Shown piece by piece: positions 38 to 10,295 of a stretch of 64,000 nt of DNA. The position numbers and the translations under genes were made by a program. The stretch comes from an uncultured Erysipelotrichaceae bacterium (lineage in GTDB: Bacteria > Bacillota_I > Bacilli_A > RFN20 > CAG-826). Position 1 is the stretch's first letter; each line of letters begins with the position of its first letter. The stretch is taken from contig CADCDA010000002.1 of assembly GCA_902800025.1 (NCBI GenBank), positions 1-64,000 on the forward strand. The letters are read 5' to 3'. The notes beneath the pieces were generated by a model that was given only the letters and a program-made list of their open reading frames with translations, was not told the DNA's origin and did not search any database.

Positions 38-1030
38 TTATTTATTGAATAAATAATTTTTTTGACCCTCTTTCTGGTCTGGCGACATGCCAATTGCAGT
101 ATGAATTCTCTGTTCGTTGTAATAGTGGATATATTTTTCTAGATATTGTTTGATTATGAGTGAATTTTCATATTTATCAATATTAATATTGATTTCTTCT
201 TTCCTTAAAGTTGAATAAAAGCTTTCCATAACTGCGTTGTCGTATGGATTACCAGGAAAAGAAAAGGATTGAGAAACGCCTAACATCTTTAAAGTAGTCA
301 TAAAGGCCTTAGAGGTGAATTCTCCACCTTGGTCCGTGTGAAAAATCAATCCTTCTGGTTCGTTTCTATTTTCAAATGCATCTTTAAATGTATTTATCGC
401 TAGTTTTTCGCTTCTTTTATGTGATAATCTCCAGGCGATAACTTTTCGTGAATATAGGTCTAGTATTGCACATATATAAAACTTTACAGAATAAACTTTT
501 AATTCTAAAAAATCCGATACCCAAACTTTATTTGGAGATGTTTGATTAAACTGCTGTTTTAAAAGATTGATTTTATAGTTAGCTTTCTTCTTTTTGTTGT
601 TTTCTTTTGCTGATGGTCTTTGAATAACTCTTTTAACTTTTAAATTATTCTCTTTCATTATTTTGGAAATTGTAACTGTAGTAGTGTTAATTCCTTTTTG
701 CCTTAACACTATTCGAATTCTGTTTTGCCCATATAGTCCTTTGGATTCGTTAAAAATTCTAATTATTTCTTTGGTGAGTAACTTCTCATTCTTCACATAT
801 ACGGTTTCTTCAACTTTGTGATGAAGATAATTATAAAAAGTTCCTCTTGATAAACCAATAGTGGTACATACTTCATAAGCGGTAAAAGTTGGATTTAATT
901 CAAGAAATCTTTTGGTAGCCTCTTCTTTTTCTTGAATTGAAGCATTGTAACCAATTCCAATATGTTCAAAGATAAAAATCTTTCTTATTAGCTTCGCATT
1001 CTCTTCTAATAACCGAGCTTTCTTAATCAT
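38..1030 (-). CDS. IS3-family transposase (OrfB, DDE integrase)
   Basis: The 330-residue product is an IS3-family OrfB transposase, which cuts and joins element ends. An HTH_21-like segment lies near residues 98-130 (YGQNRIR). The integrase core follows with the DDE triad D173 (VSDF), D233 (HTDQGGEF) and E269 (ESFYSTLRKEE). The second Asp and the Glu are 35 residues apart, as usual in this family. I chose the ATG at 1030 because GGAGGG (1039-1044 on the complement) sits 8 bases upstream; the in-frame ATG at 1066 has no such site. IS3 elements normally carry orfA upstream and make a frameshift fusion, but no orfA is present in the 110 bases upstream. This is therefore an orphan OrfB or a trimmed element. 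The reading frame is intact, so the protein could be functional. Confidence 0.93.
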   Translation of the reverse strand: MIKKARLLEENAKLIRKIFIFEHIGIGYNASIQEKEEATKRFLELNPTFTAYEVCTTIGLSRGTFYNYLHHKVEETVYVKNEKLLTKEIIRIFNESKGLYGQNRIRIVLRQKGINTTTVTISKIMKENNLKVKRVIQRPSAKENNKKKKANYKINLLKQQFNQTSPNKVWVSDFLELKVYSVKFYICAILDLYSRKVIAWRLSHKRSEKLAINTFKDAFENRNEPEGLIFHTDQGGEFTSKAFMTTLKMLGVSQSFSFPGNPYDNAVMESFYSTLRKEEININIDKYENSLIIKQYLEKYIHYYNEQRIHTAIGMSPDQKEGQKNYLFNK

Positions 1031-1178
1031 TTTACATTCCCTCCAGCAATGTGGTAAGAATATCAAATTATTAAAAAAGTGGTACTCTCTAGCACAAAGT
1101 GCTTGCCCCTCCTCCTTCTCCTCCTATAGAATAAAAGAAATTAATTGATTATTTTGTTTAAAGGAGTTTAAAGAAAAT

Positions 1179-2846: not shown

Positions 2847-3059
2847 TTAATCTTTCCACGATATGTCTATTTTTTTCTTGTTTTTTACGCAATCTAATAA
2901 GTAAAAGTTTATAAGCGATTGATAAGGAATTGATGTCTTCTCTGACATCTCTTTAAAATAATCTAAAACATCCTCACTTATGTTAATCGTGATTTGTTTT
3001 TTTAATAACTTTGTGTAAGGATTTTTGCTTCCTTTTGAGAAATCATATTCTTTCTTCAT
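2847..3059 (-). CDS. brnA: BrnA-type antitoxin
   Basis: This small DNA-binding antitoxin pairs with BrnT. The 70 residues contain the BrnA signature KKQITINISEDVLDYFKE (residues 20-37), a ribbon-helix-helix-like core in which the strand QITINI would contact DNA. Members of this family neutralise BrnT and repress their own operon. I took the ATG at 3059; a GTG at 3083 is in frame but would lengthen the overlap with brnT from 17 to 41 bases. The C-terminal tail, rich in Lys and Asp, is unusual for the family. It is the second gene of the pair, in the normal toxin-first order, and is followed by a strong terminator. Confidence 0.82.
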   Translation of the reverse strand: MKKEYDFSKGSKNPYTKLLKKQITINISEDVLDYFKEMSEKTSIPYQSLINFYLLDCVKNKKKIDISWKD

Positions 3060-3336
3060 TTTTAAAATACTCTTTTCTTTCACTATTAGTCGCTTTTCTA
3101 GCGGAAATTATTCTAATGATTGATTCATTTTGACGATAGCAATGACAAACTACCAATAGATTGTATTTGTAAGAAAAACCAATCATTACAAATCTTTCTT
3201 CATTTTCACTGTGCGTTTCATCACTAATTATTAGCGCCTCATCATCATAGAATACAGAACTTGCTTCTTCGAAGCTTATTCCGTGCTTTTTGATGTTTGA
3301 TTGGTTTTTATTCTCGTCCCATTCGAATTTTAACAT
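3043..3336 (-). CDS. brnT: BrnT-type ribonuclease toxin
   Basis: This 97-residue toxin belongs to the BrnT family (RelE-like fold, mRNA interferase). Matching features in order are FEWDENKNQSNIKKHGISFEEA (about residues 4-25), a D-E-x-H motif (ETHSENEER), LLVVCHCYR, and RIISARKATNSERKEY at the end, which carries the conserved Arg-Glu-Tyr residues. It overlaps brnA by 17 bases. The ribosome site before the ATG at 3336 is weak. However, AAAGGAGG on the minus strand precedes an 8-codon reading frame (3350-3376) ending 13 bases before brnT, which could be a leader peptide that couples translation. The gene lies directly downstream of the structured RNA on the same strand. Confidence 0.88.
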   Translation of the reverse strand: MLKFEWDENKNQSNIKKHGISFEEASSVFYDDEALIISDETHSENEERFVMIGFSYKYNLLVVCHCYRQNESIIRIISARKATNSERKEYFKNEERI

Positions 3337-3421
3337 AAATACCTAATAATTACAAAATAATTATAAATGTAATCATTTGACCTCCTTTCTTTAGACGTTG
3401 GTGGTGCTTTTGAAAAGGAGA

Positions 3422-3752
3422 CAAAAAACCACCCAACTCAAAACACCTTTTGTAACTAACTGCTGATATCCCTATCAACCATAGTTACTGGTGTTTCATC
3501 CCTCGTTGGATGGCCTCTGATTCAAATAAAATATATTTGTGTGGAGCGTGGGCAATATTGCTACATAAACCGTGTCCTAATGGTCGCCATTTATTTATGT
3601 ATCGCTTTTACCTTCTGGGCGATGCTTTCCACAATGCAAGATCCTAACACGTCCAATCTTGCAGTCTCTATTAGGGTGTTCTATCGTTTACCTGCGTATG
3701 GTCGACTTTGCTTATTGCTAGTTCATACCGCCGATAGTCTGCTAATAGATAC
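3422..3752 (-). ncRNA. Unassigned large structured RNA (about 330 nt)
   Basis: This 653-base gap (3337-3989) holds no convincing gene, but the minus strand looks like a discrete RNA. A promoter (3759-3787) precedes it and a hairpin plus U6 ends it. Helices I can trace, as paired plus-strand blocks, are: 3742-3749 with 3667-3674 (8 bp); 3732-3737 with 3681-3686; 3724-3728 with 3696-3700; 3656-3662 with 3636-3642; 3619-3623 with 3601-3605; and 3505-3513 with 3429-3437, the closing terminator stem followed by U6 (3423-3428). Inside the last stem are AAACACC/GGUGUUU and GUAACU/AGUUAC. It lacks the GAGGAAAGUCC of RNase P and the tRNA-like ends of tmRNA. I do not recognise the family. Confidence 0.6.
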
Positions 3753-3758
3753 ATAATC

Positions 3759-3787
3759 ATTGTATAATGCCGAGCACACAACATCAA
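3759..3787 (-). promoter_or_regulatory. Promoter of the structured RNA
   Basis: On the minus strand, TTGATG (complement of 3782-3787) and TACAAT (complement of 3759-3764) are exactly 17 bases apart. They predict a start at about 3752, which is where the first 8-bp helix begins. Confidence 0.65.
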
Positions 3788-3889
3788 TTTAATTTATTAA
3801 TAAATTAGCGAATTTTTTATGGGTGGAAAATAATTAAACAAGGGGTGGAAATTGTATCGTTTCCTTAGTGCCTAGCCATCTTAACATTG

Positions 3890-3922
3890 AATCCTTGATA
3901 CCAATTGTATTAAGGATTTTTT
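3890..3922 (+). terminator. Intrinsic terminator before the secreted gene
   Basis: AATCCTT (3890-3896) pairs with AAGGATT (3912-3918), extended by ATAC/GTAT, and a T run follows. It insulates the promoter at 3930. What is transcribed upstream on this strand is not clear; 3757-3889 shows nothing coding. Confidence 0.7.
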
Positions 3923-3929
3923 AAAAACT

Positions 3930-3962
3930 GTGACACTTTTGTGACGCATGTAGGTGTAATAT
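3930..3962 (+). promoter_or_regulatory. GTGAC direct-repeat promoter, copy 3
   Basis: GTGAC at 3930-3934 and 3941-3945 (11-base period). The -10 box TAATAT (3957-3962) starts 11 bases after the base equivalent to the end of copies 1 and 2. It drives the large secreted protein. Confidence 0.7.
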
Positions 3963-3989
3963 ACAAAAGATTTTTATTGGAGGTGCTTT

Positions 3990-8359: not shown

Positions 8360-8433
8360 TTTTTTATAAAATAAAACTATACATATTAATAAAAATGATA
8401 AATAATATTTATGCACGAATGTGCGTAAATTAA

Positions 8434-8499
8434 TTTGGCAAACCCGGAGCAATCCGGCGACGCAAAGCTATAGGGCCCTAAATGGGTAGCCAGTTGCAC
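8434..8499 (+). promoter_or_regulatory. c-di-GMP-I (GEMM-I) riboswitch 1
   Basis: The aptamer shows the GEMM-I core in order. These are GGCAAACC, a P1b hairpin CCGGA-GCAA-UCCGG with a GNRA loop, GACGCAAAGCUA, a second arm AGGGCCCUAAAUGGGUAG, and the 3' GCCAGUUGC that closes P1 with GCAA. It lies in the leader of a diguanylate cyclase gene, and a terminator follows at 8525. The 8 bases CGCAAAGC in the aptamer core (8461-8468) are perfectly complementary to GCTTTGCG in the top of the terminator (8533-8540). Folding of the aptamer around c-di-GMP should therefore free the terminator, an OFF switch. Identity of the motif is secure; the polarity is inferred. Confidence 0.92.
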
Positions 8500-8524
8500 T
8501 TAAAATCTATTATTCGATTTTTTG

Positions 8525-10098: not shown

Positions 10099-10192
10099 CT
10101 GCTTATTTCAGGACATGATTACTGGCAAAATTATAATTTTGATACAAAAAAAATTGTAATTGTAATTTAGATAAATTAAAATAATAGCAGTC

Positions 10193-10263
10193 AAAAGCAA
10201 ACCTGGAGAAATCCAGCGACGCAAAACTACAGGGTCTTAAATTAAAAAGATAGCCAGTTGCCT
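10193..10263 (+). promoter_or_regulatory. c-di-GMP-I (GEMM-I) riboswitch 2
   Basis: Same architecture as the motif at 8434: AGCAAACC, hairpin CUGGA-GAAA-UCCAG, GACGCAAAACUACAGGG, and 3' UAGCCAGUUGCC closing P1 with GCAA. It precedes the three-gene surface operon. The 3' P1 strand GCCAGTTGCC (10253-10262) can instead pair over 10 bp (three wobbles) with GGTGATTGGC (10277-10286), which is followed by TTTTAATTT. Ligand binding holds this strand in P1 and blocks the terminator, so this should be an ON switch. The motif is certain by eye; polarity is inferred from mutually exclusive pairing. Confidence 0.92.
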
Positions 10264-10295
10264 GAATTAAGAGAAAGGTGATTGGCTTTTAATTT
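10253..10295 (+). terminator. Terminator sharing the riboswitch 2 P1 strand
   Basis: GCCAGTTGCC (10253-10262) with GGTGATTGGC (10277-10286), then TTTTAATTT up to the ATG. The 3' arm also contains the only ribosome-site-like sequence (AAAGGTG, 10274-10280). Confidence 0.7.

Follow-up and report, generated by a model that had tools for sequence, protein, structure and literature searches.

The window, a stretch of 64,000 nucleotides from an uncultured Erysipelotrichaceae bacterium, encodes a structured RNA of about 330 nt on its minus strand. From sequence comparison and folding models, this RNA is probably a cis-acting leader that is found, across an order of gut Bacilli, before unrelated genes of toxin-like or candidate anti-phage type and that keeps these genes off by default. 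What is new is the proposal of a regulatory RNA of the leader type, with a known Rfam family of unexplained function at its core. The copy in the window is atypical, with a downstream gene pair that probably has its own operator and with an altered start, so the confidence expressed here is for the family and not for control of brnT, the gene that follows the RNA in the window.

The original prediction was of a real, structured minus-strand RNA with its own promoter and terminator, and it is supported by the homologues. The gap of 653 nt (3337-3989) that was said to be free of genes indeed holds no plausible gene. The promoter TTGATG-N17-TACAAT was found, as were the long helices of the minus strand and the 3' stem that is followed directly by six U (Table 1). 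For the minus strand, the fold energy is -92.6 kcal/mol (z -4.16), and none of 100 shuffled sequences folded as well, in agreement with the claim of a non-random structure. The plus strand of the same region also folds well (z -3.42), so fold energy alone cannot prove the strand; the homologues prove it. Across the loci, at least five of the six bases of the -10 box are matched in 56 of 57 cases, compared with 37% at random places, and the -35 box is weakly enriched. The conserved unit in the aligned loci is about 330 nt long; it begins right after the -10 box and stops at the terminator.

The RNA had been called unidentified, and this part does not stand. The Rfam search that was proposed together with the claim gave a strong match to an already catalogued family, RF02941 'COG3943' (103.4 bits against a gathering threshold of 71.8). 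The other matches between 3300 and 4000 were at chance level (E 1.1 and 4.5), as expected from the stated lack of RNase P, tmRNA, and 6S RNA marks. The Rfam entry is of the type 'Gene; sRNA' and carries no assigned function. Its entire model of 108 positions is matched by the 3' third of the RNA (108 of about 331 nt, 103 bits), whereas the conserved RNA is three times longer and runs on into a ribosome-site hairpin. The neighbourhood of COG3943 (RhuM) genes is the apparent source of the family name and is not a criterion of the Rfam model. The window has brnT in place of a neighbouring RhuM gene, RhuM is found at 11 of 59 loci, and the RNA fronts four or five kinds of genes and not RhuM alone. 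The COG3943 motif was reportedly described in a paper of 2017. A literature search of partial coverage found neither the phrase 'COG3943 RNA' nor a description of a leader common to such toxin-like or candidate-defence genes. With these results, an orphan Rfam family is given its full extent, a consistent genomic neighbourhood, and a proposed mechanism that can be tested.

Three copies of the RNA are present in the source genome of the window. In a sample of the same family it was found in 57 of 196 genomes, and a sample of the order added two further genomes (one other family). Samples of the class and the phylum gave matches within the window's own family and no new family. The named records that contain the RNA are uncultured Bacilli and bins labelled 'Erysipelotrichaceae' and 'Bacillales', many of them from the gut of ruminants or horses. 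Viral contigs gave no match to the exact core pattern, a scan that misses divergent copies, and hence nothing to suggest that phages are the main carriers of the RNA.

The genes behind the RNA can indicate what it is used for. A total of 62 distinct cores were collected from uncultured gut Bacilli. Enough downstream sequence was available for 59 of these, and the genes were called by tblastn. At 58 of the 59 loci, the first recognised gene that follows on the RNA's strand is one of a few toxin-like or candidate-defence kinds; the exception, L081, has a broken reading frame. These genes encode a DUF1016/YhcG PD-(D/E)XK nuclease (24 loci), an undescribed KYHFR protein (14 loci, plus one behind a 60-aa ORF), RhuM-Fic (11 loci), DUF4314 followed by DUF1016 (four loci), and, in a minority, BrnT (four loci). 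Pfam matches were to YhcG_C/DUF1016_N, RhuM, Fic, and BrnT. DUF1016 and RhuM also match the PADLOC candidate-defence models PDC-S02 and PDC-S05/S23, and RhuM has been proposed as a toxin domain of defence loci (PMC3710099). Multi-gene runs are present as well, RNA-DUF1016-RhuM (G052 C4) and RNA-RhuM-DUF1016-brnT (G072 C18).

The KYHFR family, named for the motif KYHFR...HPF[IL]V, consists of proteins of 110-120 aa (for example L066:6201-6545, L077:6437-6796, and L052:1340-1666), and no match to it was found in Pfam, NCBIfam, or PADLOC. The structural matches of its AlphaFold model (pLDDT 90) are almost exclusively MazF and CcdB toxins. The Foldseek matches are weak (best E 0.11, TM 0.5-0.6); comparison with MazF-like folds gave Z up to 9.0, and the type III toxin CptN (4rmo) gave Z 7.3. 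By its predicted fold, KYHFR is possibly a new toxin family of gut Bacilli, and a shared fold does not prove activity. In L082 and L042, a 60-aa ORF (MRNPNRI...) lies first after the RNA and ahead of the KYHFR gene, and it is a candidate antitoxin. In L099, an apparent insertion sequence with IS3-type frames splits the KYHFR gene near its start, about 170 nt past the terminator. Two genomes from the same genus as the window have a tmRNA gene that adjoins a gene of the KYHFR family (L128, 966-1354, and L130, 959-1347, both on the minus strand).

The layout of promoter, RNA of about 330 nt, terminator-like stem, ribosome-site hairpin, and gene, all on one strand, is common to the loci. A Shine-Dalgarno (SD) sequence and a start codon were found at all but three BrnT loci, and where both are present the start codon is 28-54 nt downstream of the terminator (median 41). 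The RNA has its own promoter and terminator and is filed by Rfam as an sRNA, so it could be a free-standing, trans-acting sRNA that is merely co-inherited with these genes, and the one 5' domain that is 100% identical in tandem copies before different genes in L042 would fit. This is very unlikely, because a gene of one of these few kinds follows on the same strand at 58 of 59 loci, with its start codon mostly within that short distance, and because the helices between terminator and start coevolve with segment b of the RNA, for which a separate sRNA would have no need. The present evidence favours a leader over the sRNA of the Rfam entry.

The leader appears to be portable. RNAs that are 97-99% identical precede unrelated genes, KYHFR in L043 and DUF4314-DUF1016 in L092, and DUF1016 in L071 and RhuM in L078. 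The two tandem RNAs of L042 with identical 5' domains precede DUF1016 and KYHFR. Such placement points to a portable leader and not to a gene-specific partner. Within the near-identical RNA pairs, identity is 0.41-0.79 in the upstream flank and 0.43-0.79 between terminator and SD. The nearest relative of an RNA shares its gene class in 49% of cases, compared with 33% with shuffled labels, which is a weak linkage between RNA version and gene class. Tandem RNA-gene-RNA-gene arrays were seen in L042 (RNAs at 2083 and 3740, in RNA orientation) and in L051 (3281 and 4912). Near-identical RNAs in such arrays suggest leader duplication or gene conversion. Arrays of this kind, with different genes behind the same block, could also be expected if the conserved block were a DNA recombination site of a gene-cassette system and not a functional RNA. 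This is extremely improbable in light of the compensatory base pairing, the -10 box, and the terminator. In addition, the upstream flanks have no common junction, and of the immediate neighbours that were read, none could be assigned to a recombinase family.

Another explanation is a type III-like toxin-antitoxin system, in which the RNA would be the antitoxin, made in excess by means of the terminator, and would bind the downstream toxin directly. The order of promoter, RNA, terminator, and toxin gene is identical to that of ToxIN (PMC5772629), with a terminator between RNA and toxin gene in both. Many of the genes here encode single toxin-like proteins without an obvious protein antitoxin, and the MazF-like predicted fold of KYHFR has CptN among its structural matches. 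With respect to the type III toxin families ToxN/CptN/TenpN the picture is mixed: KYHFR has that fold and no Pfam match, and RhuM and DUF1016 belong to other families. Against a type III-like system, no tandem repeats were found in the RNA, unlike in ToxIN and CptIN. Nearly identical RNAs before unrelated folds are hard to reconcile with an antitoxin that binds directly, and the exchange of the RNA between genes argues against a toxin-specific binding partner. The conserved ribosome-site hairpin and the b:c helix described below point to control of expression, genes of the same families also exist without the RNA, and BrnT already has BrnA. A type III-like system is therefore quite unlikely. 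The structured 5' region of type I toxin mRNAs such as tisB (PMC7708055) also keeps the ribosome site of the toxin shut. It differs from the leader described here in that no antisense RNA was seen and that the leader ends in a terminator and forms a large family common to different toxins.

The RNA can be divided into a 5' domain, a central domain, and the 3' part that includes the Rfam core (Table 1). The 5' domain exists in two unrelated, interchangeable versions, A in the window and B elsewhere, and genes for DUF1016, RhuM, KYHFR, and BrnT are found behind both. The strict forms of both central marks, GUGUUAGG and GGAAAGYAUYGCCCAG, are found together in 48 of the 57 loci, and no locus lacks both marks.

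Table 1. Putative features of the RNA and of the neighbouring brnTA genes in the window.
Feature	Position	Strand	Remarks
Promoter TTGATG-N17-TACAAT	3759-3787	-	-10 box kept across loci, -35 box weakly
Full-length RNA, about 331 nt	3422-3752	-	predicted start to U-tract; limits from inter-locus similarity
5' domain	3667-3749	-	closed by outer helix P1 (3749-3742 / 3674-3667)
Central hairpin GCAAGAU/AUCUUGC	3636-3662	-	conserved GUGUUAGG in loop; six pairs covary significantly
Central domain	3541-3632	-	closed by long-range pairs 3632:3541 and 3631:3542; contains conserved GGAAAGCAUCGCCCAG
Rfam RF02941 'COG3943' core	3443-3550	-	103.4 bits, model positions 1-108 of 108
Segment x, CCAUCCAAC	3505-3513	-	pairs with y (Rfam hairpin) or z (terminator)
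Segment y, GGAUG	3497-3501	-	pairs with x in Rfam-model hairpin
Segment a, AACACC	3490-3495	-	invariant; pairs with b in core fold
Segment b, GGUGUUUUG	3439-3447	-	pairs with a, or with downstream c
Segment z, GUUGGGUGG (3429-3437) and six U (3423-3428)	3423-3437	-	intrinsic terminator-like 3' end
Ribosome-site hairpin	3381-3420	-	anti-SD CUCCUUU (3420-3414) pairs with AAAGGAG of SD
Segment c, UCAAAAGCACC	3403-3413	-	inside ribosome-site hairpin
Shine-Dalgarno, AAAGGAGG	3381-3388	-	within ribosome-site hairpin
8-codon ORF MITFIIIL	3350-3376	-	occupies main-gene start position of other loci
Palindrome AUAAUUA-N5-UAAUUAU	3346-3364	-	probable BrnA operator, read from sequence
brnT, ribonuclease toxin (PF04365)	3043-3336	-	E 2.9e-31
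brnA, antitoxin (PF14384)	2847-3059	-	E 4.7e-7

Covariation, which had been proposed as a check on the structure, was found in 10 column pairs at E<0.05 over 56 sequences. The test was an R-scape-like implementation of our own and not R-scape itself; it used an APC-corrected G-test with a null in which the tree-mapped substitutions were redistributed. In nine of the 10 pairs, 95-100% of the combinations are Watson-Crick or G-U; in the tenth, the share is 89%. The central hairpin (3662-3656/3642-3636) accounts for six of the pairs. The others are the long-range pair 3631:3542, the hairpin pair 3536:3526, 3654 with 3621, and the x:y pair 3508:3501. The pair of 3654 with 3621 may be part of a pseudoknot, in which the loop side of the central hairpin would contact a conserved strand, AUCGCCC, that is not part of that hairpin.

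The 3' part contains segments that can pair in more than one way. The terminator x:z and the hairpin x:y are mutually exclusive, and the b:c helix excludes both a:b and the ribosome-site hairpin. These helices were examined by arm swapping, in which the duplex energy of native arms is compared with that of arms exchanged between loci. Native arms were better for the terminator stem x:z (z -8.2), the b:c helix (z -10.0), and the ribosome-site hairpin (z -9.1), and six control pairings gave |z| of 2.1 or less; relatedness is not fully removed by this test, although the controls stay flat. No signal was obtained by arm swapping for x:y (z -0.7) or a:b (z -0.8), both of which are near-invariant. 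Little covariation is seen in x:z and a:b, since x and a are almost invariant. Of the 59x9 cells examined for b:c, 94% are paired, and 19 of the changes are two-sided. Between the two RNAs of L042, whose 5' domains are identical, b differs and c differs with it. A tree-aware test of two sets gave E 1e-4 for the x:y pair 60:67 and E 5e-4 for the b:c pair 142:187; the support for x:y is one covarying pair. The search that yielded 52 of the stretches used a pattern in which x, y, and a are set, and the remaining stretches came from the Rfam model, so that x, y, and a are partly fixed by the selection of loci. Segments z and c and the SD region lie outside both the pattern and the model. The results support three helices beyond the Rfam model, namely the x:z terminator, the ribosome-site hairpin, and b:c.

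The balance between these helices was modelled. When the sequence from the core through the start codon folds freely, the mean probability is 0.99 for x:z and 0.96 for a:b, and the SD is unpaired with a probability of 0.04. When b:c is imposed, the latter rises to 0.31 on average; the increase is seen at 58 of 59 loci and costs a median of 10 kcal/mol relative to the free fold, and the ribosome site is still only partly free. If only the core is folded, the terminator state is favoured over x:y by 9.4 kcal/mol on average. About 70 nt lie inside the terminator, which in this respect does not resemble a textbook terminator hairpin. By these model energetics, OFF would be the default state, and ON would need a strong effector or folding kinetics.

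The leader thus probably has two locks, termination and sequestration of the ribosome site, together with a switchable ON fold. In a resting cell, x:z would end most transcripts, and the ribosome-site hairpin would block translation of any transcript that reads through. When a signal is bound by the 5' domains, x:y would form and prevent the terminator, and b:c would open the ribosome-site hairpin so that the gene is made. As in riboswitches and attenuators, the RNA is part of the 5' leader of a gene on its own strand (58 of 59 loci), has a structured upstream domain, and contains mutually exclusive conserved helices, among them terminator and antiterminator and the helix that sequesters the ribosome site. 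It differs from them in that its genes are toxin- or defence-like and not metabolic, in its two interchangeable 5' domains, and in its combination of OFF controls on both transcription and translation. Infection or stress is the likeliest trigger, because the genes look toxic or defensive. It is conceivable, if rather unlikely, that the RNA is a portable sensor of phage infection or host shutdown that switches on the anti-phage toxin joined to it, as an immune receptor with interchangeable effectors. If the leader reading is true, bacteria would employ one and the same RNA switch for a variety of dangerous genes, which encode unrelated toxin-like or candidate-defence proteins, and a handle would be gained on when single-gene candidate defences turn on.

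A hairpin that buries the ribosome-binding site was also seen at KYHFR and DUF1016 genes without the RNA, some of them distant relatives, in the last 45 nt or so before the gene (L130, L131, L146, and L206). This gives the impression that such genes are generally kept silent.

It had been proposed that the RNA may be a leader that controls BrnT. The leader part is borne out for the wider family, and control of BrnT itself is uncertain, given its probable own operator and the altered start-codon position. The neighbouring genes on the same strand were confirmed by Pfam as encoding BrnT and BrnA. In the window, the SD of the leader is intact and the RNA ends about 90 nt before brnT. Variants of the palindrome that lies between the RNA and brnT are also found ahead of most brnT genes where the RNA is absent (L113-L116), which makes it probable that brnTA is served by an operator of its own. 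The RNA in the window may therefore be a leader without its original gene that stands by chance before a self-regulated brnTA cassette. This is a real possibility, if not the expected one. The RNA-brnT loci have no main-gene start after the leader SD (the window has an 8-codon ORF there, and the other loci have no ORF), which would fit, as would the recurrence of the palindrome. Against it, the leader, the ribosome-site hairpin, and the b:c pairing are intact at the RNA-brnT loci. The neighbourhood recurs in three genera (g1, g30, and g8), one with a quite different RNA version, and in G072 brnT closes its same-strand run.

Other features of the window were observed. An IS3-type transposase is encoded near the RNA locus (38-1066, minus strand). 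On the plus strand, 2059-2337 and 2427-2720 each encode a small protein in which a Cys-rich, zinc-ribbon-like part comes after a Nif11-like leader (LTEEQ...GGG); both are possibly precursors of peptide natural products. Two c-di-GMP-I riboswitches are also present on the plus strand (8427-8501 and 10186-10265), one of them just ahead of a gene for a GGDEF-type protein.
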